Assembly: GCA_937868725.1 (NCBI GenBank)
Contig: CALMMQ010000023.1
Coordinates: 1-49,718, forward strand
Source: an uncultured Pleomorphomonas sp.
GTDB lineage: Bacteria > Pseudomonadota > Alphaproteobacteria > Rhizobiales > Pleomorphomonadaceae
Reading direction: 5' to 3'
DNA length: 49,718 nt
Part shown: positions 29,548 to 44,800 of the stretch, one piece after another
How positions within the stretch are numbered: position 1 is the stretch's first letter
Layout of the letters: every line of letters begins with the position of its first letter
The notes under the pieces: generated by a model
What the model was told of the DNA's origin: nothing
The model's input: the letters and a program-made list of their open reading frames with translations, nothing else
The model's database searches: none
Position numbers and translations under genes: made by a program

Positions 29548-30975
29548 ATGCCCAAAATCAAACTCACCAAGACCGCTGTAGACGCCGCAAGCCCGAAGGA
29601 GCGCGACTACGAACTCAGAGATACGATGATACCCGGCTTCCTTGTCAAGGTCACGCCGGCTGGCCGCAAAATATTCATGGTGGCCTACGTCGCCCACAAC
29701 GGCCAGCGCCGCAAGCCGGCGATCGGCCGGTACGGCGAGATCACCGTAGAACAGGCGCGGGGGATCGCCCAGGATTGGCTCGCAGAGGTCAGACGGGGCG
29801 TCGATCCCAGCGCCGAACGGGCAGCCGCCCGTCAGGCGCCCACGGTCAAGGAACTCTTCGACCAGTTTATGACCGACTATTCGGAGAGCCGGAACAAGCC
29901 CTCGACCGTGGAGTCCAATCGCGGCTACGGGAAGCGCTACATCATTCCAATCCTCGGCCACCTCAAGGTGCCGGATGTGGCGCGCGCCGACATCGCGCAT
30001 CTCATGAAGAAAATGAACCACAGCCCCACCAACGCCAACCGGGTTCTGGCCACTGTGCGCAAGATGTTCAACATGGCCGAGGTCTGGGGCATGCGCCCTG
30101 ACGGCTCCAACCCTTGCCGGCACGTCCCCAAATATCCCGAGCGCGGCAAGACCCGGCTCATCACCGATGGCGAGTTGCGCAAGCTCTATGAGTATCTCGA
30201 ACGGGCCGAGGCCGAGGGGCTTGAACACCCTTTCATCCTTCTCGCGATCCGCCTGCAATTCGAGTTTGCGGCCCGGATGTCCGAGATCCTCGAACTCGAA
30301 TGGGCGTGGATCGACTTCGACAACCGGCGCGTGGTCTGGCCGGACAGCAAGACCGGCGGCATGTCGAAGCCGATGAGCGCCGAGGCGATCCGACTGTTCG
30401 AAACGGCTCCTCGGCTAGAGGAGTCGCCATTCGTCTGCCCTTCCGTTTTCGATCCTGCCCTGCCGATGTCCAAGCACACCTATTATCAGGGCTGGCGGCG
30501 TATTCTCGAACGGGCCGGCCTACCGCATATCGGAACGCATGGCATTCGCCACCGTGCCGCAACCGATATCGCCAACTCCGGAATCCCGGTCAAAGTCGGT
30601 ATGGCGCTCACCGCGCACAAGACCGTGACCATGTTCATGCGTTACGTCCATACTGAGGATGATCCTGTTCGGGCGGCCGCCGAAGCAGTCACGCAGCGCC
30701 GGCTATCCCTGGTCGGCGCCAGCCAGTCGCCAGCGCCGTCAAATCCGGCGCCCGCGATCGCCCCACCGGAGTTGCCAACGGTCGCGCCGGCCGTCGAGGT
30801 GATCCCTGCGGAATTGGGACCGGACGGCAAGCCACTTGGATTCGAGGACGGTAAGTATGCCTCCCGAACCCGTCTGGGAAACTATCGCCCCTTCCGGCAT
30901 CGCACCGGCGAAAATCGCGCCGTCCCGCCCGGAACGAAACGCGCCGAGGCACAGGAGGAGGCAAGCCATGCGTGA
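29548..30975 (+). CDS. int: Tyrosine-family integrase of the mobile element
   Basis: The 475-residue protein has the N-terminal P4-type arm-binding domain (ELRDTMIPGFLVKVTPAGRK), a core-binding domain (TVKELFDQFMTDY) and a complete catalytic set: Arg243 in AARMSEILELEW, His331 and Arg334 in HGIRHRAATD, His357, and Tyr366 in MRYVH. It would integrate and excise the element. About 110 residues follow the catalytic Tyr, rich in Ala/Pro and ending in Arg/Glu-rich sequence, longer than usual. The next gene overlaps it by 8 bases. Confidence 0.93.
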   Translation: MPKIKLTKTAVDAASPKERDYELRDTMIPGFLVKVTPAGRKIFMVAYVAHNGQRRKPAIGRYGEITVEQARGIAQDWLAEVRRGVDPSAERAAARQAPTVKELFDQFMTDYSESRNKPSTVESNRGYGKRYIIPILGHLKVPDVARADIAHLMKKMNHSPTNANRVLATVRKMFNMAEVWGMRPDGSNPCRHVPKYPERGKTRLITDGELRKLYEYLERAEAEGLEHPFILLAIRLQFEFAARMSEILELEWAWIDFDNRRVVWPDSKTGGMSKPMSAEAIRLFETAPRLEESPFVCPSVFDPALPMSKHTYYQGWRRILERAGLPHIGTHGIRHRAATDIANSGIPVKVGMALTAHKTVTMFMRYVHTEDDPVRAAAEAVTQRRLSLVGASQSPAPSNPAPAIAPPELPTVAPAVEVIPAELGPDGKPLGFEDGKYASRTRLGNYRPFRHRTGENRAVPPGTKRAEAQEEASHA

Positions 30976-31282: not shown

Positions 31283-31651
31283 ATGGAGTGGGAAGTCCAA
31301 TTCCATGCAGCCTTCGAGGCGGAGGTTTTGGCCTTTGAGCGTGAGGTTCGCATCGCATTGATCGCGGCGACCAGGCTGCTGTCGGACTATGGACCGCAGC
31401 TTGGCCGGCCCCACGCGGACACGCTCAAAGGCTCGAAACACGCCAACATGAAGGAGTTGCGGTTTGAGGCGGCCGACGGCGAATGGCGCGCAGCCTTCGC
31501 CTTCGACCCCGAAAGGCGAGCGATCATGCTCGTGGCGGGCGACAAATCCGGGGGAAGCCAGAAGCGGTTCTACCGGCAACTCATCGCAAAAGCGGATCTC
31601 CGGTTGTCCGAGCATCTGGAAAGCCTGAAACCCGCAAAGAAGGGACGTTGA
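31283..31651 (+). CDS. RelE/HigB-type toxin (Gp49-like family)
   Basis: The 122-residue protein matches the phage Gp49/HigB toxin family: an N-terminal FHAAFEAEVLAF, the middle GRPHADTLKGSKHANMKELR and WRAAFAFDPERRAIMLVAGD. These toxins cut mRNA on the ribosome. It begins 12 bases after the previous gene, and the antitoxin gene starts one base after its stop. Toxin before antitoxin is the HigBA order. Confidence 0.85.
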   Translation: MEWEVQFHAAFEAEVLAFEREVRIALIAATRLLSDYGPQLGRPHADTLKGSKHANMKELRFEAADGEWRAAFAFDPERRAIMLVAGDKSGGSQKRFYRQLIAKADLRLSEHLESLKPAKKGR

Positions 31652-31652
31652 G

Positions 31653-32027
31653 ATGGCACGTAACCTGAATGACATCATTGCCGCGCTTCCTGCGGACGAG
31701 CAGGTCGCGATCGAATCCCGCTACCAGGAACTGAAGCACGAGGTCGAGGGCTTGCGCGAGCTTCGCCAGATCGCCGGCAAGGCGCAGGAGGACATCGCCA
31801 CGGCCCTCAACATCAAGCAGCCGTCCGTCTCCAAGATCGAGAAGCAGGCGGATATGTATCTCTCGACACTCCGCAGCTATGTCGAGGCCGTCGGCGGCAA
31901 GCTCGAACTCACCGTGAAGCTCCCGGCACATCCCGCGCTTCGGCTGCAAAGCCTGGGTGATGTCAGTGCCCCGAACGTTCCGGCACGGAGCGTCGCGCGG
32001 CGGCAAAAATCGACGGTGGCGCAATAG
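31653..32027 (+). CDS. XRE-family antitoxin (HigA-like)
   Basis: The 124-residue protein has a helix-turn-helix in its middle: LRQIAGKAQEDIATALNIKQ followed by PSVSKIEKQADMYLSTLRSY. It should neutralise the preceding toxin and repress the shared promoter. It starts with ATG one base after the toxin stop and has AAGGGACG upstream. The pair likely stabilises the element against loss. Confidence 0.85.
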   Translation: MARNLNDIIAALPADEQVAIESRYQELKHEVEGLRELRQIAGKAQEDIATALNIKQPSVSKIEKQADMYLSTLRSYVEAVGGKLELTVKLPAHPALRLQSLGDVSAPNVPARSVARRQKSTVAQ

Positions 32028-32031
32028 ATCT

Positions 32032-33072
32032 ATGCTCCCATTGGATAGCGACAACACCGTACCCGCGCCCAAATGCAGATTGTGCGGCTCAGACCTGACC
32101 GACGCCAACGATTCGGAAGCCCACGTCATACCGAACGCCCTGGGCGGACGATTGAAGCCGAAGGGAATTCTCTGCCGGACCTGCAACACGGAATTGGACG
32201 ACCTGGCCGACAACGCGCTGGTCAAGGCTTTCGGTGATTGGCCCACGCTCCTCGATATCCCGAGGGACCGTGGCAAAAACCCGCCTAAGAAACTGGAAAC
32301 CCGCGACGGCAAGACGGTGCGATTGGAGCCCGACGGAACCGTCACCCGCATCGACGTCCTCTACGATGTCGTTCCGATCGAGGAAGGGCATGAGGTCCGG
32401 ATCGGCGCGGGCGACATGACGACCTTCCGGCAATTGCTCATGCGTGCCGCCAAGCAATTCCCGCAGCTCGATCCGAAGGTCGCTGAAGAGCACGCCCGAA
32501 CAATCGGCATCGATGATGACGATCACCTTAAGATGAGCCTGGATTTCAGCCCGCAGGCTGTGTTCGGCGGGATCATCACTGCGATCTGGCTGTTCCTGAT
32601 CATGAAAACCGGCCGGGCCTTCATGGATCGGCAGCGTCTTTCACAGGTCATCAAAACCATGCAGTCCTACGGCGGGACCTTCCGCTATTTGATCGCGGGG
32701 CTACCGGGCCTGCTAGGTCCCGATGTGCCGATCGGTCACAAGATCATCGTGAGGTCCGTTCCCTCCACGGGCGAACTTATCACCTATGTCGAGATTCTCG
32801 GCATATTGAAGGTCGGTGGGGTTCTCGCCACGGCTCAACCATCTTGTATCCCTCTCGAGTACATCTACGCCTATGATGTCGTGGGGCGACGTGACGTCAG
32901 TGCCGATTTTTCCGTCGACGCGAGCATCTTCGAAAAACAGATGTGGAGAGAGGTCGGGCTCGGCCCCACCGATGCAGAAGCGCTACAAGAGTATTTTCGT
33001 GAAGCTCTGGAGACCGTCTTTGAACAGCATTATCGGGCGCGATTCACGCAGACTGAAAGTGATCAAGCATGA
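32032..33072 (+). CDS. HNH-type (HNH_5-like) zinc-finger protein
   Basis: The 346-residue protein begins with a treble-clef zinc finger of the HNH_5 pattern: CRLCG (Cys15, Cys18), the AHVIPNALGG segment (His31) and CRTCN (Cys48, Cys51). This fold usually cleaves or binds nucleic acid. The remaining 290 residues match no domain I recognise; a hydrophobic stretch IITAIWLFLIM lies near residue 185. It follows the antitoxin by 4 bases, so it may be cargo of the same unit. A defence role is conceivable but not shown. Confidence 0.65.
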   Translation: MLPLDSDNTVPAPKCRLCGSDLTDANDSEAHVIPNALGGRLKPKGILCRTCNTELDDLADNALVKAFGDWPTLLDIPRDRGKNPPKKLETRDGKTVRLEPDGTVTRIDVLYDVVPIEEGHEVRIGAGDMTTFRQLLMRAAKQFPQLDPKVAEEHARTIGIDDDDHLKMSLDFSPQAVFGGIITAIWLFLIMKTGRAFMDRQRLSQVIKTMQSYGGTFRYLIAGLPGLLGPDVPIGHKIIVRSVPSTGELITYVEILGILKVGGVLATAQPSCIPLEYIYAYDVVGRRDVSADFSVDASIFEKQMWREVGLGPTDAEALQEYFREALETVFEQHYRARFTQTESDQA

Positions 33073-33200
33073 CACTTCCAGGCCGATGAGGCTCTCTGTG
33101 GCGAAACAGCTATTCCCAGTTGCCATGAGGTTGTGTCTGCGACGTAGCCTCATCACAATGAGATCCTGAGCCACGGCTTTGCGGGTTTAGGTTCTACGGC

Positions 33201-33281
33201 GGGGGAAAGCCTTCCCCCTGGCCGGCACTGCGTTGCCGGCGCACCCCCTTCAGCGGGGAGACCCCGCAACGCCCCTTTTAG
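33201..33281. other. Three consecutive hairpins at the border to the element core
   Basis: Three inverted repeats follow each other within 70 bases: GGGGGAA/TTCCCCC (33201-33207 and 33212-33218), GCCGGC/GCCGGC (33221-33226 and 33235-33240) and GCGGGG/CCCCGC (33253-33258 and 33262-33267). The last is followed by AACGCCCCTTTTAG and could end transcription from the integrase side. They separate the integrase and cargo genes from the core. Confidence 0.55.
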
Positions 33282-33361
33282 AGTGAGAGTGCGGACCGGG
33301 TTTACCGTGACGGGTTGAGGGCTGGGAGAGAGGCTCCCGGCGCCCGTCGCGGAGAACCGCG
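33275..33361 (+). promoter_or_regulatory. Structured leader, class I, copy 1 (ArdC gene)
   Basis: The leader can form an outer stem GTGACGGG/CCCGTCGC (33307-33314 and 33343-33350), an inner 7-bp hairpin with loop AGAGG (stem 33322-33328 and 33334-33340), and a start-site hairpin CGCGG-AGAA-CCGCG (33348-33361) that contains the ribosome binding site GGAG and ends at the ATG. The start-site hairpin shares CGC with the outer stem, so the two exclude each other. Two further copies lie at 35211 and 39241. Confidence 0.7.
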
Positions 33362-34324
33362 ATGTCCAGACATGACCGCAGCGCGCGCACCGGCTCAGAC
33401 CGGGCGAACCTTTACGACGAAATCACCGGCAGGATCATCGCCGAGTTGGAGGCCGGGCGCATTCCCTGGGTGCAGCCCTGGGGAACCTCCGCTGCGAAGG
33501 CGCCACTCGGCCTGCCGCAAAACGCCTCGACCGGACGAAATTACTCGGGGATCAACGTCCTGATCCTCTGGGGCGCCGTCATCGAGCATGGTTTCCCCGG
33601 CCAGGGCTGGCTCACTTTCCGTCAGGCCCTCTCGCTCGGCGGCAATGTCCGCAAGGGCGAGCGCGGCACCACCGTCGTCTATGCCGATCGCTTCGTTCCC
33701 GAGGACGAGAAGAAGCGTGCCCGCGACACTGGCGATGAAGCCCACGCTATCCCTTTCCTGAAAAGATTCACCGTCTTCAACACGGCGCAATGCGAAGGTC
33801 TGCCCGAGGAGATCGGGGCCGTCGCGCCGCCACCGCCGCCCGGCATGATCGAGCCGAAGGTCGAGGCGCTGATCAAGGCGACGGGCATCGACTTCCGCAT
33901 CGGCGGCAATAAGGCGTTCTATGTCCCGGCGCTCGACTATATCCAGGTCCCGCCGCCGGCCGCCTATTTCGAACCGATCAACTGGCACAGAACTGCGCTG
34001 CACGAAGTCAGTCACGCGAGCGGCCACCATAGCCGGCTCAACCGTGATCTCTCCGGTTCCTTCGGCTCAAAGCCCTATTTTTTCGAGGAATGCGTGGCCG
34101 AAATTTCCAGCGCCTTTTGCTGCGCGGCCACCGGGATCGTCCCGACCGTGCGGCACAGCGATTACATCGGCGCGTGGATCGAAACGATGCGCGCCGACAA
34201 TCGTGTCATTGTCCGCGCCGCCTCGCAGGCGAGCAAGGCGGCCGACTGGATCTTGTCCTTCCTGCCGGAAGACGAGCGGCCGACCGCGGAGCCGGACACT
34301 ACCATCGACAGGAGGGCCGCGTGA
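33362..34324 (+). CDS. ardC: ArdC-like antirestriction protein
   Basis: The 320-residue protein has the N-terminal ArdC single-strand DNA-binding domain (YDEITGRIIAELEAGRIPWV, ASTGRNYSGINVLILW) and a C-terminal zincin-type domain with HEVSH at residues 214-218 and a downstream FFEECVAEISSAF that supplies the third ligand. ArdC proteins protect incoming single-stranded DNA during conjugation from host restriction. A Pro-rich linker (APPPPPG) joins the domains. It has a class I leader and overlaps the next gene by one base (TGATG). Confidence 0.9.
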   Translation: MSRHDRSARTGSDRANLYDEITGRIIAELEAGRIPWVQPWGTSAAKAPLGLPQNASTGRNYSGINVLILWGAVIEHGFPGQGWLTFRQALSLGGNVRKGERGTTVVYADRFVPEDEKKRARDTGDEAHAIPFLKRFTVFNTAQCEGLPEEIGAVAPPPPPGMIEPKVEALIKATGIDFRIGGNKAFYVPALDYIQVPPPAAYFEPINWHRTALHEVSHASGHHSRLNRDLSGSFGSKPYFFEECVAEISSAFCCAATGIVPTVRHSDYIGAWIETMRADNRVIVRAASQASKAADWILSFLPEDERPTAEPDTTIDRRAA

Positions 34325-35100
34325 TGCGTTTCCATCGCGGGCACAGGCCCGAGCCCTATGGAGACACGTCGCGCAAACGCGCGGCGTTCCTGCGCAAGCA
34401 GCGTCTCGAACGCGAGGCACTGCCGCTCTTTGCCGCCGACATCGCCGCCGGCCAGCACAGTGTCGACCAGGAAATGGCCCGCCGTGCCATCTGGTGGGAC
34501 GAAGCCGAACGCGAGCGCCGCAGCCGGCGGGCAGCCTGGTGGCGCAAGGGCCGTGCGCGGCTGTTCGCGCTGCCCGATCCGCTGCGCCAGCGCGTCCGCG
34601 AGATCTGGCGGACCTGCCCCTATCCGGCCGATCCGGCGAGCTTTGCCGATTTCCTCCATCAGATCGCCGTCGGCAAGCTCGATCCCTACAGGCCGCCATG
34701 GGTCTTCCATCAGGAGCGCGCGGCGCGGATCACCCGCAACCCGGCAACCTTTGCCGACGCCTTCCGCCAGATCGGCAAGCGCAAGGCCGGTGGCGGGCAG
34801 AACCCGACCGAAGCCGACGAGCTGCTCTTCTGCGGCAATCTCGGCTCCGGCATCCTTTTCCTCGCCTCGCAGATCCGGCCGATCGATCCGGGCGAAAGCC
34901 TCCATATCCTCAACGGTCATCGCCTCGGCGGCGGCTATGTCGGTCGGGCCAGCCATTGGGTCGAGATCGAGGTGCGCGGCGCGTGCTCCGATGCGGACCT
35001 CGCCCTGATCGAGCGGCTCGCCCAGGCCGGCGACACGCGGCCCGTCGTCGTCCGGCGCATGGTCTCCTCCGCAGCCATAACCGGGAAGGCGCAGTCATGA
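34324..35100 (+). CDS. Conserved protein of unknown function, two-part
   Basis: The 258-residue protein looks like two units. Residues 1-105 are rich in Arg, Ala and Trp (RRSRRAAWWRKGRARLFALP) and probably helical; residues 130-258 contain ELLFCGNLGSGILFLASQIR and LNGHRLGGGYVGRASHWVEI, a compact mixed fold. I do not recognise a catalytic motif. It is coupled to ardC by the TGATG overlap, which suggests a shared role in establishment of the element. GTG 34321 is an alternative start. Confidence 0.7.
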   Translation: MRFHRGHRPEPYGDTSRKRAAFLRKQRLEREALPLFAADIAAGQHSVDQEMARRAIWWDEAERERRSRRAAWWRKGRARLFALPDPLRQRVREIWRTCPYPADPASFADFLHQIAVGKLDPYRPPWVFHQERAARITRNPATFADAFRQIGKRKAGGGQNPTEADELLFCGNLGSGILFLASQIRPIDPGESLHILNGHRLGGGYVGRASHWVEIEVRGACSDADLALIERLAQAGDTRPVVVRRMVSSAAITGKAQS

Positions 35101-35127
35101 GCGATGTGCCCCATCCGCCTGAAATAC

Positions 35128-35193
35128 GCAAAGCCGGAAATGCGGGTCTCCGGGTGTCCGGCTTTGCGCTTCCGTCTGTTTCCGGTTCGCCGG
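35128..35193 (+). terminator. Hairpins after the ardC pair, REP-like and terminator-like
   Basis: A perfect 10-bp stem GCAAAGCCGG/CCGGCTTTGC (35128-35137 and 35158-35167) encloses GGGTCTCCGG, and is followed by a small hairpin CCGG-TTCG-CCGG (35182-35193) and TTTTGTT. The second part can terminate transcription before the next leader. A related palindrome lies inside the helicase gene at 42121. Confidence 0.55.
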
Positions 35194-35210
35194 TTTTGTT
35201 GGCGCTGCTC

Positions 35211-35297
35211 TCCTTAGAGTGAGAGGGCGGCGCTTTGCTTCGTGACGGGTTCAGGGTTGAGAGAGAGGCTCTCGACGCCCGTCGTGGAGAAACCACC
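35211..35297 (+). promoter_or_regulatory. Structured leader, class I, copy 2 (ParB-like gene)
   Basis: The outer stem is GTGACGGG/CCCGTCGT (35242-35249 and 35278-35285), the inner hairpin TTGAGAG/CTCTCGA with the same loop AGAGG (35257-35263 and 35269-35275), and the start-site hairpin GTGG-AGAAA-CCAC (35284-35296). Compared with copy 1, two inner pairs change from C-G to T-A and from G-C to A-T, keeping the stem. Confidence 0.7.
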
Positions 35298-37454
35298 ATG
35301 GCAAAAGCTGCCAAGAAAATCGTCTTTTCGCGTTCGCGCGACATTCCTTTCAACCAGCTCGTGCTCAGCGAGGCCAACATCCGGCGTGTCCGTCCCGACG
35401 CCAATGTCGAGGAACTGACCCAGGACATCGAACGCCGCGAGGATTTGATCCAGGGCCTCAATGTCCGTCCGGTTCTCGACTCCGACGGCAACGAGACCGG
35501 CCTGTTCGAGGTCCCGGCCGGCGGTCGCCGCTACCGGGCGATCGAGCGGCTGGTGAAGGCGAAGCGTTTTCCGAAGGATGGCCTCGTGCCGTGCATCGTG
35601 CGCGATCCGGGCACCAGGATTCTCGCCGAGGACGACTCCCTTGCCGAGAACGTCCAGCGCGTCGGCATCCATCCGCTCGACCAGTACCGCGCCTTCCATG
35701 ACATGCACCGGAAGGGCATGAGCCACGAGGAGATCGCCGTCGCCTATTTCACGACGTCCGAGTTCGTGAAGCAGCGGCTCCGGCTTGCCGGCGTTTCGCC
35801 CGTCCTGCTGGACATCTACGCCGACGACGGCATGACGCTGGCGCAACTGGAGGCGTTCACCGTCAATCCCGACCATGCCCGCCAGGAACAGGTCTGGGAC
35901 GCCATCCAGCATTCCTACAATCGCCAGCCCTGGTATATCCGCCAGTTGCTGACCGAGACCACCGTTCCCGCTTCCGACAAGCGGGCGCGGTTCATCGGCA
36001 TCGACGCTTATGTCGCCGCCGGTGGCCCGGTCCTGCGCGACCTGTTCCAGGCTGACGAAGGCGGCTGGCTGGAGGACGTGCCGCTGCTCGACCGGCTGGT
36101 CTCCGAAAAGCTGAAGACCATCGCCGACGAGATCGCCAATGAAGGCTGGAAGTGGATCGCCGTCGATATCAATCTTCCCTACGGCTATGATCGCGGCTTG
36201 CGCGCCATCGCCAGCACCTTCGCCGATCTGACCGACGACGAGCGGACCGCCCGCCAGGCGCTTCGCGAAGAATACGAGCGGATCGAGGCCGAACACGAAG
36301 GCGCCGACGAACTACCAGACGAGATTGATCATCGCCTTGGCGAGATCGAGACGGCGCTTGAGGCCTTCGAGAAGCGTCCGGTCATCTACGATCCCGCCGA
36401 AATGGCATGCGCCGGCGTCTTCGTCAGTATCGACGGCGAAGGCGAGCTTCTGATCGATCGCGGCCATGTCCGTCCGGAGGACGAGGCCCCGGTCGAGATC
36501 GAAGGCGCCCAACCGGACGGAGATGCCGAAGCCGAAGGCTCCGACGCACCGGCCGACCCCGTCGTCCATCGTGCCGTCATCACCATCGGCGGCCAGCAGC
36601 CCGAACCGGAGGAGGAGGATGAGGTCGACGTCATCAAGCCGCTGTCCGAGCGCTTGGTGACGGAACTGACGGCCGAACGCACGCTTGCGCTGCGCGACAA
36701 GATGGCGAACGATCCTTCGGTCGCTTTCCTTGCCGTCCTGCACAAGTTCTGCAGGGACGTCTTCCCCCGCTTCAGCTCTTACGGCCCGGCCATGACGGTC
36801 TCGGTTCGCAGCACCGACTTCTCCCTTCAGGCGACGGGCCTGAAGGATACGCTGGCGGCGCGCGCCATCTTGGAGCGCCGCAAGGCCTGGGAGGAGCGCA
36901 TGCCGAAGGACGAGGACGCCCTCTGGGATTGGCTCGTCTCCCTGGACGGCACCGAACAGGCGGCGCTGTTCGCCCATTGCGCGGCGCTGGGCGTCAATGC
37001 GCTCTACGAGAAGCCGAACGGCACGACGATCACCGAGCATGGCATCCGGCAGCGTCTGGACGAAGCCGACCGTCTCGCCCGTGCCGTCGATCTCGACATG
37101 GCGGAGGCAGGCTGGAAGCCCACGGTCGAGAACTACCTCGGCCGCGTTCCCAAGGCCCGCATCCTCGCAGCCGTCCGCGAAGGCGCCGGCGACCGTGCTG
37201 CCGATCTGATCGCTCATCTGAAAAAGGGCGACATGGCCAAGGAGGCCGAGCGCCTGCTGGCCGATACCGGCTGGTTGCCGGAACCGCTGCGCCTTGCCGA
37301 TCTCGACGCTGATCAGGCCGTGGAGCCGTCGGCAGGCGTTGAGGACGGCGACGAAACGGCGCTGCCGGACTTCCTCGCCGGAGATGACGACGAGAATGCC
37401 TCGGATGACGACGCCAGTAGCGAGGAGCCGGAGCACCTGGTCGCCGCCGAATAG
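35298..37454 (+). CDS. Large ParB/Srx-fold CTPase-like DNA-binding protein
   Basis: The 718-residue protein has a complete ParB N-terminal module: GGRRYRA (residues 75-81), ENVQR (117-121) and a helix-turn-helix with MSHEEIAVAYFTTSEFVKQR (141-160). The first two motifs bind CTP in ParB proteins. The following 550 residues, with an acidic stretch near residue 435 (PEPEEEDEVDV) and an acidic C-terminus, are a feature of ParB-like proteins of alphaproteobacterial plasmids and integrative elements. No parA or parS cluster is visible, so a role in transcription or DNA protection is as likely as partition. It has a class I leader. Confidence 0.85.
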   Translation: MAKAAKKIVFSRSRDIPFNQLVLSEANIRRVRPDANVEELTQDIERREDLIQGLNVRPVLDSDGNETGLFEVPAGGRRYRAIERLVKAKRFPKDGLVPCIVRDPGTRILAEDDSLAENVQRVGIHPLDQYRAFHDMHRKGMSHEEIAVAYFTTSEFVKQRLRLAGVSPVLLDIYADDGMTLAQLEAFTVNPDHARQEQVWDAIQHSYNRQPWYIRQLLTETTVPASDKRARFIGIDAYVAAGGPVLRDLFQADEGGWLEDVPLLDRLVSEKLKTIADEIANEGWKWIAVDINLPYGYDRGLRAIASTFADLTDDERTARQALREEYERIEAEHEGADELPDEIDHRLGEIETALEAFEKRPVIYDPAEMACAGVFVSIDGEGELLIDRGHVRPEDEAPVEIEGAQPDGDAEAEGSDAPADPVVHRAVITIGGQQPEPEEEDEVDVIKPLSERLVTELTAERTLALRDKMANDPSVAFLAVLHKFCRDVFPRFSSYGPAMTVSVRSTDFSLQATGLKDTLAARAILERRKAWEERMPKDEDALWDWLVSLDGTEQAALFAHCAALGVNALYEKPNGTTITEHGIRQRLDEADRLARAVDLDMAEAGWKPTVENYLGRVPKARILAAVREGAGDRAADLIAHLKKGDMAKEAERLLADTGWLPEPLRLADLDADQAVEPSAGVEDGDETALPDFLAGDDDENASDDDASSEEPEHLVAAE

Positions 37455-37463
37455 GTCACATCC

Positions 37464-37487
37464 GCGGGGCGGCTCCGGTCGCCCCGC
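37464..37487 (+). terminator. Hairpin after the ParB-like gene
   Basis: An 8-bp perfect stem GCGGGGCG/CGCCCCGC (37464-37471 and 37480-37487) is followed by TGTCTTCC. It may end or slow transcription, although the T run is poor. Confidence 0.5.
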
Positions 37488-37512
37488 TGTCTTCCATCCC
37501 TTTGTTTCGTGC

Positions 37513-37554
37513 GCCCGGCCCCGTGCCGGGCTTTCTTTTTTGCGGAGAGAAACC
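37513..37554 (+). promoter_or_regulatory. Terminator-type leader, copy 1 (141-residue protein)
   Basis: GCCCGGC-CCCGT-GCCGGGC (37513-37531) is followed by TTTCTTTTTTG, a full intrinsic terminator shape, and directly by the ribosome binding site GCGGAG for the next gene. The same GC hairpin plus pyrimidine run precedes three other small genes of the element. Confidence 0.65.
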
Positions 37555-37980
37555 ATGAAAGTTCGTGCCATCCTCGAATTTGATCTCGAAAACGAAAGCG
37601 GCGACCCGATTACGGGGCGAAAGGAGTATGTCTGGGCTGCCGAGGCCGCCGATGACGCCATTCGCTCGCGTCTCATGGGCGCCGGATTTCTGGCCGACGA
37701 CACCATGATCGGCACCTATACGCTCGACGTCACCGTCATCGACGGGACGGACGGAGGCAGCACGGCGGCCGAGCCGGAGCCGAACCAGGCCCCCGACAGC
37801 GCCGTTCTGACCAGCGATCAGTTCGACAACCTGCTCGACGACGCGACACACGCCGTCAACGATATGATTCCCGACCATGTGCTCGCAGGCCTTTCGAACG
37901 ATGGTCGCACGGATCTTCTCTACGCAATCAACGACGCGCTGACGGCGGTGCTCGATCCGTACATCGAGAGAAAACCGTGA
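37555..37980 (+). CDS. Small acidic protein of unknown function, 141 residues
   Basis: The N-terminal half (VRAILEFDLENESGDPITGR) looks like a beta-rich domain; the C-terminal half (VLTSDQFDNLLDDATHAVND) is helical. It is strongly acidic: about 29 Asp/Glu against about 9 Lys/Arg. No motif is recognised. It has its own terminator-type leader, and GCGGAG lies 8 bases before the ATG. Occurrence with ArdC, ArdB and ParB genes suggests a function in element establishment or counter-defence; that is inference. Confidence 0.7.
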   Translation: MKVRAILEFDLENESGDPITGRKEYVWAAEAADDAIRSRLMGAGFLADDTMIGTYTLDVTVIDGTDGGSTAAEPEPNQAPDSAVLTSDQFDNLLDDATHAVNDMIPDHVLAGLSNDGRTDLLYAINDALTAVLDPYIERKP

Positions 37981-38038
37981 ATCGCACCGGCAGCGAACGA
38001 CGACCCGTTCTCTGCGGGCTGCCTCTGCCCCGAACCAT

Positions 38039-38094
38039 CCCGATCAATCGAGCCCGGCCGTCGCGCCGGGCTTTCCCGTTTCAGGAGAACAGCA
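38039..38094 (+). promoter_or_regulatory. Terminator-type leader, copy 2 (88-residue protein)
   Basis: CCCGATCAATCGAGCC leads into the hairpin GCCCGGC-CGTCGC-GCCGGGC (38052-38071), then TTTCCCGTTTC and the ribosome binding site AGGAG. Copies at 39899 and 40579 keep the same words in the same order. Confidence 0.65.
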
Positions 38095-38361
38095 ATGGCT
38101 ATCCCCGAACATGCCCGCACCAACTTCAACACGCTCCTGCGTGCCGCAGGCGACGGCAATCTCGCCCTCATGGAGTGCCTGGATGCAGTCACCGGCGAGC
38201 CGCGCTATGTCCTTTGCGCGGTCGGCCGCGATGATGGCGATTATATTTTCATCCCGTTCGGCCATCTGGCCGACGGCAACCCCTACGATGCCTACCTGCC
38301 ACCGGACCCTGACGATCCGGCGGGCTTCCTTCCGAGGCAAGCGAACGGAGGTCCGGCATGA
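38095..38361 (+). CDS. DUF6117-like small protein
   Basis: The 88-residue protein (MAIPEHARTNFNTLLRAAGD) resembles the DUF6117 family, found next to ArdC/ParB genes in alphaproteobacterial elements. The core LALMECLDAVTGEPRYVLCA reads as a strand-rich fold; charge is moderately acidic. AGGAG lies 8 bases before the ATG. It overlaps the next gene by 4 bases, so the two products are made together. Function unknown; the family name is from memory and unverified. Confidence 0.7.
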   Translation: MAIPEHARTNFNTLLRAAGDGNLALMECLDAVTGEPRYVLCAVGRDDGDYIFIPFGHLADGNPYDAYLPPDPDDPAGFLPRQANGGPA

Positions 38362-38657
38362 TCACGCTCGACGAGATATTTGCCGAGGATCGCCAAAACC
38401 CTCCCCAGGATCGCTCGCTTCCATGGGAGGAAATCCAGGACGGCATGACCGTCGTCGTCGAGCCCAAGCCGCACTGGGCTTCCGACATGAGGGCCTTCCA
38501 GCTCACGGACCGGGCTTACTGCTACTACGCCGACTGGACCGGAAAGGGTCCCGGCGCGCGGTTCTTCGCTCATCCCGAGACCTGCGGCGACGACGTGATG
38601 ACGAAGGCCCGCGCCATGATCGCGCGCGCGATCGCCGACGGTATCCGGAAGCCTTGA
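38358..38657 (+). CDS. Small protein of unknown function, 99 residues
   Basis: The protein (MITLDEIFAEDRQNPPQDRS) has a central strand-rich part, GMTVVVEPKPHWASDMRAFQ, and ends with a helix. It contains an aromatic cluster YCYYADW. I do not recognise a family. It starts inside the end of the previous gene (ATGA) and its stop codon already belongs to the class II leader of ardB. Confidence 0.65.
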   Translation: MITLDEIFAEDRQNPPQDRSLPWEEIQDGMTVVVEPKPHWASDMRAFQLTDRAYCYYADWTGKGPGARFFAHPETCGDDVMTKARAMIARAIADGIRKP

Positions 38658-38748
38658 GAGGAAGAGGGCTGTGGGGCCGGGACGGGTCCGGACGGGCAAG
38701 AGAGCGCTGTCCGGATCTTTCCCTTCCGCTCTCCGGAGAATGAACCCC
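38654..38748 (+). promoter_or_regulatory. Structured leader, class II, copy 1 (ArdB gene)
   Basis: One long hairpin (38679-38693 with 38709-38723, one mismatch and some G-T pairs) exposes a loop with GAGAGCG (38700-38706). This is perfectly complementary to CGCTCTC (38727-38733), which is followed by CGGAG, the ribosome binding site. CTCC can instead pair directly with GGAG. Loop pairing would therefore free the binding site. The leader begins with TTGAGAGG-AAGAGG, as does the copy at 41743. Confidence 0.6.
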
Positions 38749-39171
38749 ATGACCACTCAAGCGATCACATCTCCCCTCGCAACGCTTGTCCCCGATCATC
38801 GCCGCGAGATGTTCCTGCCGACGCTGTTCGGACTGCCGCTGCTGATCATCGCCGAGAACGCGGTCTACACATTCATGGACCGGCTCAGCCCGCGCGACTA
38901 TGGCGGCGGCTTCTGGAATTTCTACGAATACGAGGGCAGCACGCTGTTCCTCGCTCCGACGTCCAAACCGCGCTACCGGATCGAAAGCGAGATCACGGAA
39001 TATCGCGGCGATGTCTCGGCGGAGGCGGCAGGCATCATCGCCACGCTGTTCACCTTCTCGCATCTTTCCTTCCGGTATCAATCCGACCTGCTCGCGGAGG
39101 GGTACGACCGGCTCTACACCTATTCGACGCGCCATCCGGAAGCTTCCGGGATATTCCAGGCGATCGACTGA
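38749..39171 (+). CDS. ardB: ArdB/KlcA-family antirestriction protein
   Basis: The 140-residue protein shows the ArdB/KlcA pattern: FLPTLFGLPLLIIAENAVYT, FMDRLSPRDYGGGFWNFYE and GTLFLAP-type segment before a C-terminal helical part (YDRLYTYSTRHPEASGIFQA). ArdB proteins block type I restriction in vivo without mimicking DNA. Two starts are possible, 38740 and 38749; the second has better spacing to GGAG. It has a class II leader and a strong terminator after it. Confidence 0.88.
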   Translation: MTTQAITSPLATLVPDHRREMFLPTLFGLPLLIIAENAVYTFMDRLSPRDYGGGFWNFYEYEGSTLFLAPTSKPRYRIESEITEYRGDVSAEAAGIIATLFTFSHLSFRYQSDLLAEGYDRLYTYSTRHPEASGIFQAID

Positions 39172-39180
39172 ACGATATGG

Positions 39181-39210
39181 GCGCCCCGCTTTCCGGTGGG
39201 GCGCTTTTCT
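39181..39210 (+). terminator. Intrinsic terminator after ardB
   Basis: GCGCCCC (39181-39187) pairs with GGGGCGC (39198-39204) and is followed by TTTTCT. Confidence 0.85.
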
Positions 39211-39240
39211 CATGCCAGCCACCGCTCTCGCATGAGAACG

Positions 39241-39326
39241 ATGAGAGGAAGAGTGCGGCCGGTTTGGCCGTGACGGGATTGTGGGTCGGGAGAGAGGCTC
39301 CCGCCGCCTGTCACGGAGATATCGTG
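39241..39326 (+). promoter_or_regulatory. Structured leader, class I, copy 3 (182-residue protein)
   Basis: The outer stem is GTGACGGG/CCTGTCAC (39270-39277 and 39307-39314), the inner hairpin CGGGAG-AGAGG-CTCCCG (39287-39303), and the start-site hairpin CACGG-AGATA-TCGTG (39312-39326). An additional upstream hairpin CGGCC-GGTTT-GGCCG (39256-39270) is clear in this copy. The changes relative to copies 1 and 2 largely keep pairing. Confidence 0.7.
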
Positions 39327-39875
39327 ATGAACACCTTCAGCTCTGCAATCGCCGCCGCGCCGACCGCCCGCGCCATCGCGGCACTCGCCGCCGCCCGGAA
39401 ATTCCCGCTGCGGATCACCTGCCTCGGCGAAATCCGCTATCGGGAAGACGATCCGGTCTACGGCACCTATACGGTCCCGCGCACCGTCGAGCTGGCGCAA
39501 TGCGATTCCCTCGACGCCGCGATCGCCAGCGTCGAGCGGATCGCCGGACAGGACCGCATCGTTACCGGCGACGACGAGGCCGTCGATTTCGAGCCACGCC
39601 TGTTCGTCGTCATCGACAGCGAGCAATGCCAGGTGCTTGCCGGTGAACCCTCGCGGCATGGCATCAGATGGTGCGAACCCGTTGCCTCCGACGGCGAGGC
39701 CCGCCTCGTCGTGGAAAAGGCGAGCAAGCTGCGCGGCGAAGCCTCCTTCGAGGCGGGCTGGGACAACCACAGCACCGCCCGCACGCTTCGCTTCCGCGCC
39801 AGCGTGCTCGAGGGCCGCCTCGTTCACCCGGACTGGCGGCAGGCCGCCCGCGTCGCGCTGCTCAGGGCCGCGTGA
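39327..39875 (+). CDS. Protein of unknown function, 182 residues
   Basis: The protein begins with an Ala-rich stretch (IAAAPTARAIAALAAARKFP) and continues with a strand-rich domain (LRITCLGEIRYREDDPVYGT, RLFVVIDSEQCQVLAGEPSR). I do not recognise a family. It has a complete class I leader like ardC and the ParB-like gene, which suggests the three are controlled together. No membrane segment or catalytic motif is visible. Confidence 0.65.
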   Translation: MNTFSSAIAAAPTARAIAALAAARKFPLRITCLGEIRYREDDPVYGTYTVPRTVELAQCDSLDAAIASVERIAGQDRIVTGDDEAVDFEPRLFVVIDSEQCQVLAGEPSRHGIRWCEPVASDGEARLVVEKASKLRGEASFEAGWDNHSTARTLRFRASVLEGRLVHPDWRQAARVALLRAA

Positions 39876-41742: not shown

Positions 41743-41843
41743 TTTTGAGAGGTAGAGGAAGGCCGGGACGGGTTTGAGCCAGTGCGGTCGAGAGAGAGCG
41801 CTGCGCGAGCTCGATCCTGTCCCGCTCTCCCGAGGCTTTTCCC
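41743..41843 (+). promoter_or_regulatory. Structured leader, class II, copy 2 (methylase/helicase gene)
   Basis: The outer stem GGGACGGG/CCTGTCCC (41765-41772 and 41816-41823) encloses an inner stem (41787-41792 with 41810-41815). The loop carries GAGAGCG (41794-41800), perfectly complementary to CGCTCTC (41823-41829), just before the purine stretch CGAGG that precedes the ATG. This is the same loop/anti-site pair as in the ardB leader, although surrounding bases differ. Confidence 0.6.
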
Positions 41844-44800
41844 ATGAGCATGATTTCCGCATCCGTGGCGGTCTCCGCCACCGCGCCGCTTCCGCTTGTC
41901 TCCGACACCGATGTTTCCGCCGCCATCTTCGCGGCGGCGGGCTTGCTGCTTCCCCATATCGAGCGCGGCCAGCGTGTCGATGCCGCCATCCTGCGCCAGG
42001 CGATGGAGACCGCCTTTGGCGCATCCGATGCCAGCGGCGCCTGGGATTGGAAGTCCGGCTACGACGCCTGTGAGGCCGCGACTGTCCTCATGTTGCGCAA
42101 ATACGGAAAGGCGCTTTTCCGGAAAGCCGGGTCTCCGGCTGCACGGCTTTCCGCGCTGACGAAGATCGCCAGCCTCCTGCCGACGCATACGCGCCGCTCG
42201 GAGGAAAGCCAGACCTTCCAGCAGTTCTCGACCCCGATCCCGCTCGGCCTGGTCGCCACTACCGCAGCCGCGATCACGTCGGCCGACCGTGTGCTGGAAC
42301 CTTCGGCTGGCACCGGCCTGCTCGCCATTCTGGCCGAGATCGCCGGCGGCACGCTCATGCTCAACGAGCTGGCCGAGATGCGCGCCGGTCTTCTCTCCTC
42401 CCTCTTTCCGGCCATCTCCGTCACCCGGCACGATGCCGCCCAGATCAACGACCATCTCGATCCGGCCGTGGTGCCGACCATCGTCTTGATGAACCCGCCG
42501 TTCTCGGTGCTGGCCAACGTCGAGACCCGTGTTGCCGACGCGGCTTATCGCCATGTCGCTTCAGCGCTGGCGCGTCTCGCGCCCGGTGGCCGGCTGGTGA
42601 CGATCACTGGCGCGAACTTCGCTCCCGACAATCCGGCTTGGACCGACGCTTTCACCCGGCTGCAGGAGCGCGGCCGCGTCGTCTTCTCCGCCGCCATCGA
42701 CGGCTCGGTCTATGCCAGGCATGGCACGACCTTCCCGACGCGGCTCACCGTCATCGACAAGCTGCCCGCCGATGATCCGGCTATGTTTCCGGCCGCTCCC
42801 GGTGTCGCGCCGGATGTCGCCACGCTGATGGGCTGGCTTAACGCGCATCTGCCTGCGCGGCTTCCCGTCGATCCGTCCGCCGCCGTGGCGGTCACTGCTG
42901 CGCCCGTGCCCCGCAGCGTGCGCAGCTATCTGAACCGTACCGCGAGATCCGCACCGGCCATCCCGATGGCGGAACCCGAGGGTCTGCCGCTCGCCTATGA
43001 GTCCATCGATTGGCAGGCTGCCGAGGATGGGCGCATCTCCGATGCCATCTATGAGGAATACGGACTTCAGGCGATCCGTATTCCCGGCTCTCAGGCCCAT
43101 CCGACCAAGCTGGTGCAGTCGGCGGCGATGGCCAGCGTCGCGCCGCCGAAGCCCGGTTATCGGCCGTATCTGCCGGCCAATGTCCATGAACTGCTCTCCA
43201 ACGCGCAGTTGGAAACCATCGTCTACGCGGGCGAGGCCCATTCCGATTACCTCGCCGGATCGTGGACGGTGGACGAGACCTTCGATCTCGTCACGGCCGC
43301 GCCCGAGCATGCGAAGAACGCCGTGCGATTCCGGCGCGGCTATATGATCGGGGACGGCACCGGGGTCGGCAAGGGCCGCCAGTCCGCCGCGGTCATCCTC
43401 GACAACTGGCTCCAGGGCCGCCGCAAGGCGGTGTGGATCTCGAAGTCGGACAAGCTCCTGGAAGACGCGCAGCGGGATTGGAGCGCGCTCGGCATGGAGC
43501 GCCTGCTGGTCACGCCGCTCTCGCGCTTTCCGCAGGGCAAGCCCATCACGCTGCCGGAAGGCGTCCTATTTACAACCTATGCCACGCTACGCTCCGACGA
43601 CCGTGGGACAAGGGTTTCCAGGGTCAAACAGATCATCGAATGGTTGGGCTCCGACTTCGATGGAGTGATCATTTTCGACGAGGCGCATTCGATGCAGAAC
43701 GCCGCCGGCGGCAAAGGAGAACGCGGCGATGTCGCCGCCTCGCAGCAGGGCCGTGCCGGTCTGCGGCTTCAGCACGCGCTGCCGAATGCCCGCATCGTCT
43801 ACGTCTCGGCGACCGGCGCCACCACGGTCCACAATCTCGCCTATGCCCAGCGGCTCGGACTTTGGGGCGGCGAGGATTTTCCGTTCTCGACCCGCGCCGA
43901 GTTTGTCGAGGCGATCGAGGACGGCGGCGTCGCAGCGATGGAGGTGCTTGCCCGCGATCTTCGCGCGCTCGGCCTCTACACGGCCCGATCGCTCTCCTTC
44001 GACGGCGTGGAATACGAGCTGGTCGAGCATGAGCTGACGCCCGAGCAGGTCCGCATCTACGACGCCTATGCCGGCGCCTTCGCCATCATCCATAACAATC
44101 TGGATGCGGCGATGGAGGCGGCCAACGTCACCGGCTCCTCCGGCACGCTGAACAAACAGGCGAAGTCCGCCGCCCGCAGTGCATTCGAATCGGCAAAACA
44201 GAGGTTCTTCGGCCATTTGTTGACCAGCATGAAGGCGCCGACCCTGATCCGCTCGATCGCGCTCGATCTGGAACAGGGCCATGCCGCCGTCATCCAGATC
44301 GTCTCGACCGGCGAAGCGCTGATGGAACGGCGCCTCGCCGAGCTGCCGACCGAGGAATGGAACGACGTCCGCGTCGACATCACGCCGAGGGAGTACGTCC
44401 TCGACTACCTCGCCCATTCCTTCCCGGTCCAGCTCTACGAGCCGTTCACCGACTCGGAGGGCAACCTGTCGTCGCGTCCGGTCTATCGCGACGGCCAGCC
44501 GGTCGAAAGCCGTGAGGCCGTTGCCCGCCGCGACGACCTGATCGCCAGGCTCGCCAGCCTGCCGCCGGTTCCGGGCGCCCTCGATCAGGTCGTCCAGCAT
44601 TTCGGGACGGATGTGGTCGCCGAGGTGACGGGCCGCTCCCGCCGTATCGTCCGCAAGCCGGGCAATGGCGTCACCGCCGACCGGCTCGTGGTCGAAAACC
44701 GCGCCGCCGCCGCCAATCTCACTGAGACGCAGGCGTTCATGGACGATGCCAAGCGCATCCTGATCTTTTCCGACGCGGGCGGAACCGGAAGGAGCTATCA

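Follow-up and report, generated by a model that had tools for sequence, protein, structure and literature searches.

Genomic context and the repeated leaders

The stretch of DNA analysed here (49,718 nucleotides (nt) of contig CALMMQ010000023.1, assembly GCA_937868725.1, from an uncultured Pleomorphomonas sp.; hereafter, the window) carries an integrative element in which three genes are each preceded by the same leader, termed class I. By gene content, the window looks chromosomal up to ~29 kb (Omp85, LpxD, LpxI and other housekeeping genes); the element follows and begins with a tyrosine integrase gene (29548-30975). The three genes are ardC, a gene for a ParB-like protein and an open reading frame (ORF) of 182 residues. 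Their leaders comprise an outer stem (P1), an inner hairpin (P2) and a potential start-site hairpin (P3) that involves the Shine-Dalgarno (SD) sequence, and each leader finishes at the start ATG.

33280..33364, plus strand: class I leader of ardC, 85 nt; 5' box AGAGTGAGAG at 33280-33289
33307-33314 with 33343-33350, plus strand: P1 core of the ardC leader, extended by CC 33305-33306 with GG 33351-33352
33322-33328 with 33334-33340, plus strand: P2 of the ardC leader, loop AGAGG at 33329-33333
33348-33352 with 33357-33361, plus strand: P3 of the ardC leader; SD GGAG at 33351-33354, ATG at 33362
33362..34324, plus strand: ardC, 320 residues, ArdcN and MPTase-PolyVal domains
35216..35300, plus strand: class I leader of the ParB-like gene, 85 nt, ATG at 35298
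35238-35249 with 35278-35289, plus strand: P1 of the ParB-like leader, 12 consecutive pairs; the whole SD GGAG (35286-35289) pairs with CTTC (35238-35241)
35257-35263 with 35269-35275, plus strand: P2 of the ParB-like leader, loop at 35264-35268; P3, 35283-35287 with 35296-35300
35298..37454, plus strand: ParB-like gene, 718 residues; ParB_N at E 8e-4 and 19.9 bits, below the Pfam cut-off of 26.3
39244..39329, plus strand: class I leader of the 182-residue ORF, 86 nt; SD at 39315-39318, ATG at 39327
39270-39277 with 39307-39314, plus strand: P1 of this leader, extended by CC 39268-39269 with GG 39315-39316
39287-39292 with 39298-39303, plus strand: P2 of this leader, loop AGAGG at 39293-39297; P3, 39312-39316 with 39322-39326
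39327..39875, plus strand: 182-residue gene, no Pfam match at E 0.01; relatives stand behind 4 other leaders of the 127 described below

With G-T counted as a pair, all eight P1 core pairs and all five P3 pairs form in each copy, and the inner hairpin has 7, 7 and 6 pairs, respectively. The positions given in the initial annotation, the endings on the ATG, the three structural parts (including the loop AGAGG) and the start of CCCGTCGC at 33343 were all recovered, as were the pairing-keeping changes that it listed (C-G replaced by T-A and G-C by A-T in P2 and P3, and G-T in P1). Two features were absent from it, namely the continuation of P1 into the SD GGAG and the complementarity between a 5' variable segment and the spacer preceding the ATG. 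Their occurrence is above chance: in the 4.13-Mb genome of origin, a covariance model matches three places only, all in the window (E 2.5e-19 to 6.1e-15, the three copies being themselves among the 44 sequences behind the model), and exact GAGAGAGGCTC sites are likewise confined to these three. When a looser 16-base pattern is allowed 2 mismatches, it finds 3 matches, a number also reached in 3 of 100 shuffles.

Distribution and downstream genes

A blastn search with the ardC leader retrieves 207 plasmid records (E 0.01), 115 with an alignment over 80% or more of the query. Among 100 related genomes, 25 have a hit (the genome of origin counted), in some of them through short pieces only. Twenty fetched regions together with the window yielded 45 nhmmer hits, of which 44 were aligned (alignment A2), the excluded one (L050, 12713) being a leader of the second class described below. 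The covariance model R1, built from A2, finds the leader in 27 of 385 genomes sampled from the class, spread over 24 of 277 genera, and in 33 of 398 genomes from the phylum, both counts taking in the genome of origin; all matching genomes of the phylum set belong to the class of the window. A covariance-model search of 64 sources at E 0.01 returned 127 copies (A3); aligned copies are 80-89 nt long. An exact-pattern scan of named genomes found at least 120 stretches; among the matches listed, 79 of 80 record titles name what we take to be recognised alphaproteobacterial taxa, and one reads just Proteobacteria. Viral contigs gave no match to the same exact pattern.

The genes behind the 127 leaders, assigned by blastp to eight reference proteins, are ParB-like (56), ArdC (33), DUF932 (26), the 182-residue type (5), RadC types (4) and none of these (3), so that five families account for 124 copies. 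In 115 of the 127, the leader has the start codon as its final codon, and ORF clustering (antisense ORFs included) places a ParB-like protein in 49 of 61 loci. A repeated structured leader common to establishment-type genes (ArdC anti-restriction, ParB-like and others), as initially claimed, is thus a recurrent arrangement in many genomes and plasmids; the carriers appear to be alphaproteobacterial integrative elements and plasmids. Among the matches listed, leader and MOBP-type relaxase gene share a strand in each of the 7 plasmid records present in both sets (60 of 207 leader rows and 60 of 266 relaxase rows, about four plasmid types). This layout fits a leading-region position, the sample being small, with 4 of the 7 records being Pseudosulfitobacter plasmids of about 110 kb.

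Consensus fold and covariation

RNAalifold on A2 gives an outer stem P1 of 11 pairs and a hairpin P2 of 7 pairs with a five-base loop. Across A2, 96.8% of the cells pair (92.6% in shuffled alignments), 55 cells show a double change (20.5 in shuffles) and the covariation score is 0.324 (0.235 in shuffles), none of 500 shuffles reaching any of these observed values. Counted as events on the tree, double substitutions number 17 in P2 against 1.3 in the null (standard deviation (sd) 1.1) and 9 in P1 against 1.0 (sd 1.0), neither being reached in 200 null runs; P1 in this count is shifted by one pair from that of RNAalifold, with the SD A included and the innermost U-G omitted. Furthermore, in 50 distinct copies outside A3, found with a pattern that fixed the P1 core and the loop and left the P2 arms free, P2 pairing stands at 90.9% as compared to 77.1% with swapped arms (sd 1.3; highest of 1000, 80.9%). 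In both A3 and a MAFFT alignment of its copies, the top five of 3240 column pairs consist of four P2/P1 pairs and a fifth P2 pair one column off register.

The fold lies in the mRNA-sense strand, since G-U cells far outnumber A-C cells in P2 (135 against 22, and 45 against 6 in the 50 additional copies) and in P1 (186 against 20, one P1 pair being mostly U-G). Among the 111 A3 copies with an exact GACGGG, 63 have AGAGG as their loop and 22 show fewer than five pairs around any five-base loop in a simple scan. The 5' end carries a conserved purine box (AGAGNNAGAG), which is unpaired in the consensus; the form AGAGTGAGAG occurs in 51 of the 127 leaders and close variants in most others. Hairpin P2 is well supported and the nearly invariant P1 less strongly so. 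Comparison of the copies thus shows a near-invariant P1, a covarying P2 with a loop that is mostly AGAGG, and a sense-strand fold placed directly on the start codon.

Predicted pairing of the Shine-Dalgarno sequence

Individual folds that take in 40 nt downstream of the leader were computed for 125 of the 127 copies, the two that lack an exact GGAG being dropped. GGAG has a mean probability of 0.15 of being unpaired, and this value is above 0.5 in just 4 of the 125. Pairing of the P1 core exceeds 0.5 in 100 folds (copies without an exact GACGGG being counted as misses) and the anti-SD extension, often UUCC or CUUC in the 5' arm of P1, in 81. P1 runs on into the SD GGAG in the consensus fold as well as in most of the individual folds. 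The SD window has an unpaired value of 0.24 in the 127 leaders as against 0.39 at 68 control starts (P 1e-7), which are lower in G+C (0.57 versus 0.64), and it opens to 0.46 upon shuffling of the first 70 nt (180 shuffles, 3 each of 60 leaders). The mean minimum free energy is -54.7 kcal/mol for the leaders and -37.9 kcal/mol for the same control starts of lower G+C. In addition, in 110 leaders with exact landmarks, the pre-ATG spacer and the 5' variable segment pair better than swapped partners (0 of 300) or shuffled spacers (0 of 100). This pairing is partner-specific within the ParB-like (11 of 300) and DUF932 (5 of 300) leaders; the spacers of ardC leaders hardly vary.

P3 forms five of five pairs in 45 of 110 related leaders and four of five in another 45, and its complementarity over all leaders is above that of the controls, whether swapped (0 of 300) or shuffled (0 of 100). 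Within ParB-like leaders, this holds by pair count (0 of 300 swapped, 0 of 100 shuffled) but not by energy (52 of 300), while elsewhere partner-specificity is weak or mixed (ardC, 46 by pairs and 84 by energy; DUF932, 172 and 5, all of 300). When P3 is forced together with P2, the three window copies lose 8.6, 4.7 and 2.6 kcal/mol of stability, respectively; P3 itself also pairs the GG of the SD. The mutual exclusion of outer stem and start-site hairpin, as read initially, holds in part: P3 overlaps the outer P1 pairs, whereas the inner P1 pairs persist with P3 forced. The accompanying proposal was that the outer stem frees the ribosome binding site; in the consensus and in most of the 125 folds, it is P1 that sequesters GGAG. 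Since P1 pairs the SD, a forced P3 costs energy and P3 also pairs the SD GG, that proposal finds no support, and the fold most likely closes translation by default.

Proposed mechanism and points against it

Taken together, class I leaders are probably ~86-nt cis-acting, translation-regulating mRNA elements that have been copied before establishment genes and stay closed until a trans-acting signal opens them. According to the predicted folds, the foot of P1 would pair the SD GGAG with the anti-SD of the 5' arm and the pre-ATG spacer would pair with the 5' variable segment, both pairings giving a translationally closed default. One trans-acting signal, most probably a protein or an RNA, might serve all copies by reading the 5' box and the AGAGG loop, which are the expected partner sites because they are the conserved parts left unpaired in the consensus. 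Such a signal would open the hairpin or prevent it from closing. ArdC, the ParB-like protein and the others might then be produced jointly, for instance when the element reaches a new host, and would otherwise be silent.

Several observations weigh against this reading. In A2, the pairs with a double change number 6 as compared to 4.5 in shuffles (70 of 500 reach 6) and the pair types 21 as compared to 20.9 (343 of 500 reach 21). In a pairwise test whose null preserves the phylogeny and the changes per branch, no single pair attains E < 0.05, the best value being 0.17 on A3 and 0.74 on the MAFFT alignment of its copies. Covariation beyond phylogeny is borne out by the event count for P2 and P1, but not for any single pair. 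The search behind A3 uses structure and thus leans towards it, and P1, being close to invariant, may be conserved in sequence for another reason. The segment-spacer pairing is not partner-specific for ardC leaders (169 of 300) or for the other six (77 of 300); moreover, the spacer also complements the P3 arm, so a two-state device is still conceivable. With respect to the trans-acting signal, no small regulator is found among the ORF families common to most of the 61 loci (40 families listed). CsrA (PF02599) and ProQ (PF04352) are encoded in none of 20 carrier genomes at E 0.001, and a leader controlled by either was rejected on this ground.

Other modes of control were considered as well. An upstream ORF within the leader was rejected because a start codon at box positions 4-6 is present in only 61 of the 127 copies and is thus not conserved. 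Intrinsic terminators occur upstream of 8 of the 127 leaders, as against 7 in shuffles. As regards an antisense partner, the plus strand of the window holds no complement of the 5' box at up to one mismatch and a single complement of the loop, at 2885 within an OmpA/BON gene. A metabolite aptamer is less likely because the consensus forms one long hairpin and has no junction.

Alternative explanations

The reverse assignment, in which P1 is the ON state, P3 the OFF state and a signal favouring P1 frees the ribosome binding site, draws on the complete P3 of all three window copies and on the excess of P3 complementarity over controls, both overall and by pair count within ParB-like leaders. It is nevertheless unlikely, as P1 itself pairs the SD, P3 also takes up the SD GG, P3 has to be forced at an energetic cost in every window copy, and its partner-specific signal is weak or mixed in the other classes or by energy. 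A constitutive structural leader without switching, serving mRNA stability, an RNase site or ribosome standby, would account for the long stable hairpin (its energy being set against controls of lower G+C) and for the purine box at the 5' end, which the consensus leaves unpaired and which could be used for standby or bound by a protein. A stabiliser, however, need not pair the SD or the spacer, yet both are paired beyond controls, and the occurrence of one element before five gene families points to control in common; we hold this explanation, too, to be improbable.

Control at the level of DNA would make the repeat an operator or promoter block for an element-encoded repressor, for which the CUP elements bound by ArdK and the KorA/KorB sites serve as models. 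The strongly conserved 5' box and the inverted GACGGG ... CCCGTC before several genes would suit such a regulon, as would the conserved DNA upstream of the first leader gene. The compensatory changes, the strand-asymmetric tolerance of G-U and the position fixed on the start codon speak against it. So does the promoter scan, which covers the sigma-70 consensus: sigma-70-like hexamers within 120 nt upstream of the 127 leaders score a mean of 6.73 of 12 as compared to 6.95 in shuffles, and the only sigma-70 consensus site in 33050-39400 sits inside the ParB-like gene. A double-stranded DNA regulon is considered unlikely. A promoter or structure in the incoming single DNA strand during transfer (Frpo/ssi-like, or as suggested for STAXI) would agree with the leading-region type of genes and with the shared strand of leader and MOBP-type relaxase in the 7 records among the matches listed. 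If, as by convention, the relaxase gene enters last, such polarity would make the transferred strand the template. Were the template strand the one that folds, G-T would be tolerated on it and would show up as A-C in the sense sequence; A-C cells are few, however, and no -35/-10 pair exceeds chance upstream; this explanation is regarded as very improbable. The closed, translation-regulating mRNA leader thus remains the preferred reading.

Comparison with known systems

The leader family belongs to no Rfam family at threshold. For the Rfam check raised in the initial annotation, the window and three plasmid loci (L099-L101) were searched at the gathering threshold, with nothing on the leaders. 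At low threshold, 33100-39400 gave five sub-threshold hits, one of which, Clostridiales-2 (minus strand, E 0.18), reaches two bases into the 5' end of the ardC leader, and L101 gave one irrelevant hit. No description of this leader was found in the literature covered, subscription papers being mostly outside that coverage.

In role, the nearest catalogued relative is radC RNA (RF01754), yet it is a different RNA. In the available part of its source, radC RNA is listed as a structured RNA of Proteobacteria, certainly RNA and probably cis-regulatory (PMC2864571, Table 1). The likeness lies in a repeated leader before mobile-element genes, class I preceding RadC-type genes in 4 of the 127 copies, whereas radC RNA has 149 positions, successive hairpins and other conserved sequence in place of a single long hairpin. 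RF01754 matches no class I leader in the window or L099-L101 at the gathering cut-off of 40 bits, and at low threshold has no hit at E up to 5 in 33100-39400 or at E up to 10 in L101 6600-8700. Among 18 genomes, only G003, of the same genus, passes the cut-off, and no weaker hit falls on a class I leader among the matches listed; contig 33 of G003 carries its radC RNAs that pass, and a different contig, 44, its class I leaders. As a separate observation, this contig 33 holds five above-threshold radC RNAs within 34 kb on one strand (L157 3170-11263, L158), a parallel repeated-leader system. A sub-threshold radC-like RNA (33.5 bits against the cut-off of 40) was also noted in the genome of origin (G000 contig 62, 810-952, minus strand; L143, L159).

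In the problem posed, the nearest system is EGeRS1 of pLS20-family Bacillus plasmids, to judge from the accessible part of its report. EGeRS1 is described there as a G+C-rich, conserved region that contains inverted repeats and precedes ardC and further establishment operons; upstream of pLS20 ardC, no strong sigma-A promoter was found, and a consensus RNA structure of five copies was predicted (PMC8708921). As far as that account extends, class I leaders likewise precede ardC and other establishment genes, but EGeRS1 is a Bacillus element of 400-600 bp, in contrast to leaders of 80-89 nt with compensatory changes and an end on the start codon. As regards this difference in length, a further 110 nt are alike only before a subset of the ArdC/DUF932 leaders.

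CUP elements of IncN plasmids are repeats before leading-region genes, including antirestriction genes, and act as double-stranded promoters repressed by ArdK. Class I differs in being an RNA fold at the start codon, with no sigma-70 promoter signal found inside or next to the repeat. Frpo/ssi are, in the portion of the source available, structured elements before leading-region anti-defence genes with -35/-10 elements in a folded single DNA strand (PMC11541004). At class I, by comparison with that portion, a consensus scan, run on the sequence as such rather than on a folded strand, found no -35/-10, and it is the sense strand that carries the fold. STAXI, according to the part of its description available, is a repeated pseudoknot motif of Enterobacteriales near Ssb, antirestriction and integrase genes (PMC2864571); on that description, a repeated motif near antirestriction genes is common to both, while no Rfam family reaches threshold in the window.

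Class II leaders and neighbouring features

Further elements of the region are listed below.

33170..33279, plus strand: 110-nt stretch upstream of the first leader, with similar GGGGAAAGCCTTCCCC ... CCCCTTCTGCGGGGAGACCCCGCAACGCCCC before other ArdC and DUF932 leaders
38656..38751, plus strand: class II leader of an ArdB/KlcA-type (Antirestrict) gene starting at 38749, with a like 5' box and GACGGG element
41747..41846, plus strand: class II leader of a gene for a 1448-residue strawberry-notch-type helicase, ATG at 41844

The upstream stretch precedes 29 of the 127 leaders, picked by GCAAC[GA]C within 40 nt; its GGGGAAAGCCTTCCCC and further inverted repeats are nearly invariant and without covariation. 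Class II leaders have the same kind of 5' purine box and the GGGACGGG element. A class II pattern found 23 distinct copies in the 64 sources and missed the copy at 38656. Because the RNAalifold consensus of class II is weak (-6.7), the kinship of the two classes rests on shared sequence and is unproven. It may tentatively be proposed, as a possibility rather than an expectation, that both classes form one RNA superfamily in which a single factor or entry signal, acting via the GA-rich box and the loop, simultaneously opens all establishment mRNAs of the element in the recipient. This would amount to translational zygotic induction, a post-transcriptional counterpart of CUP/Frpo.

Apart from these, two adjacent small ORFs (122 and 124 residues; 31283-32027) beside the integrase gene are a candidate toxin-antitoxin pair by reading alone. 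On a Roseicitreum plasmid (L099 27295-27361, minus strand), a terC RNA (RF03067, 55.9 bits) lies just upstream of a Bax inhibitor-1/YccA family gene.

Implications

The quick and brief expression of anti-restriction and further establishment genes of conjugative elements after entry has been explained for few systems, through a repressor absent from the recipient or through single-strand promoters. For EGeRS1, the mechanism is left open in the part of the report available (PMC8708921). The present analysis points to a compact covarying RNA on the start codons of establishment genes across many alphaproteobacteria. If the proposed mechanism is true, translational control of establishment would become directly testable with one 86-nt element, and the 182-residue protein, the DUF932 gene and the ParB-like protein would gain a shared regulatory label.

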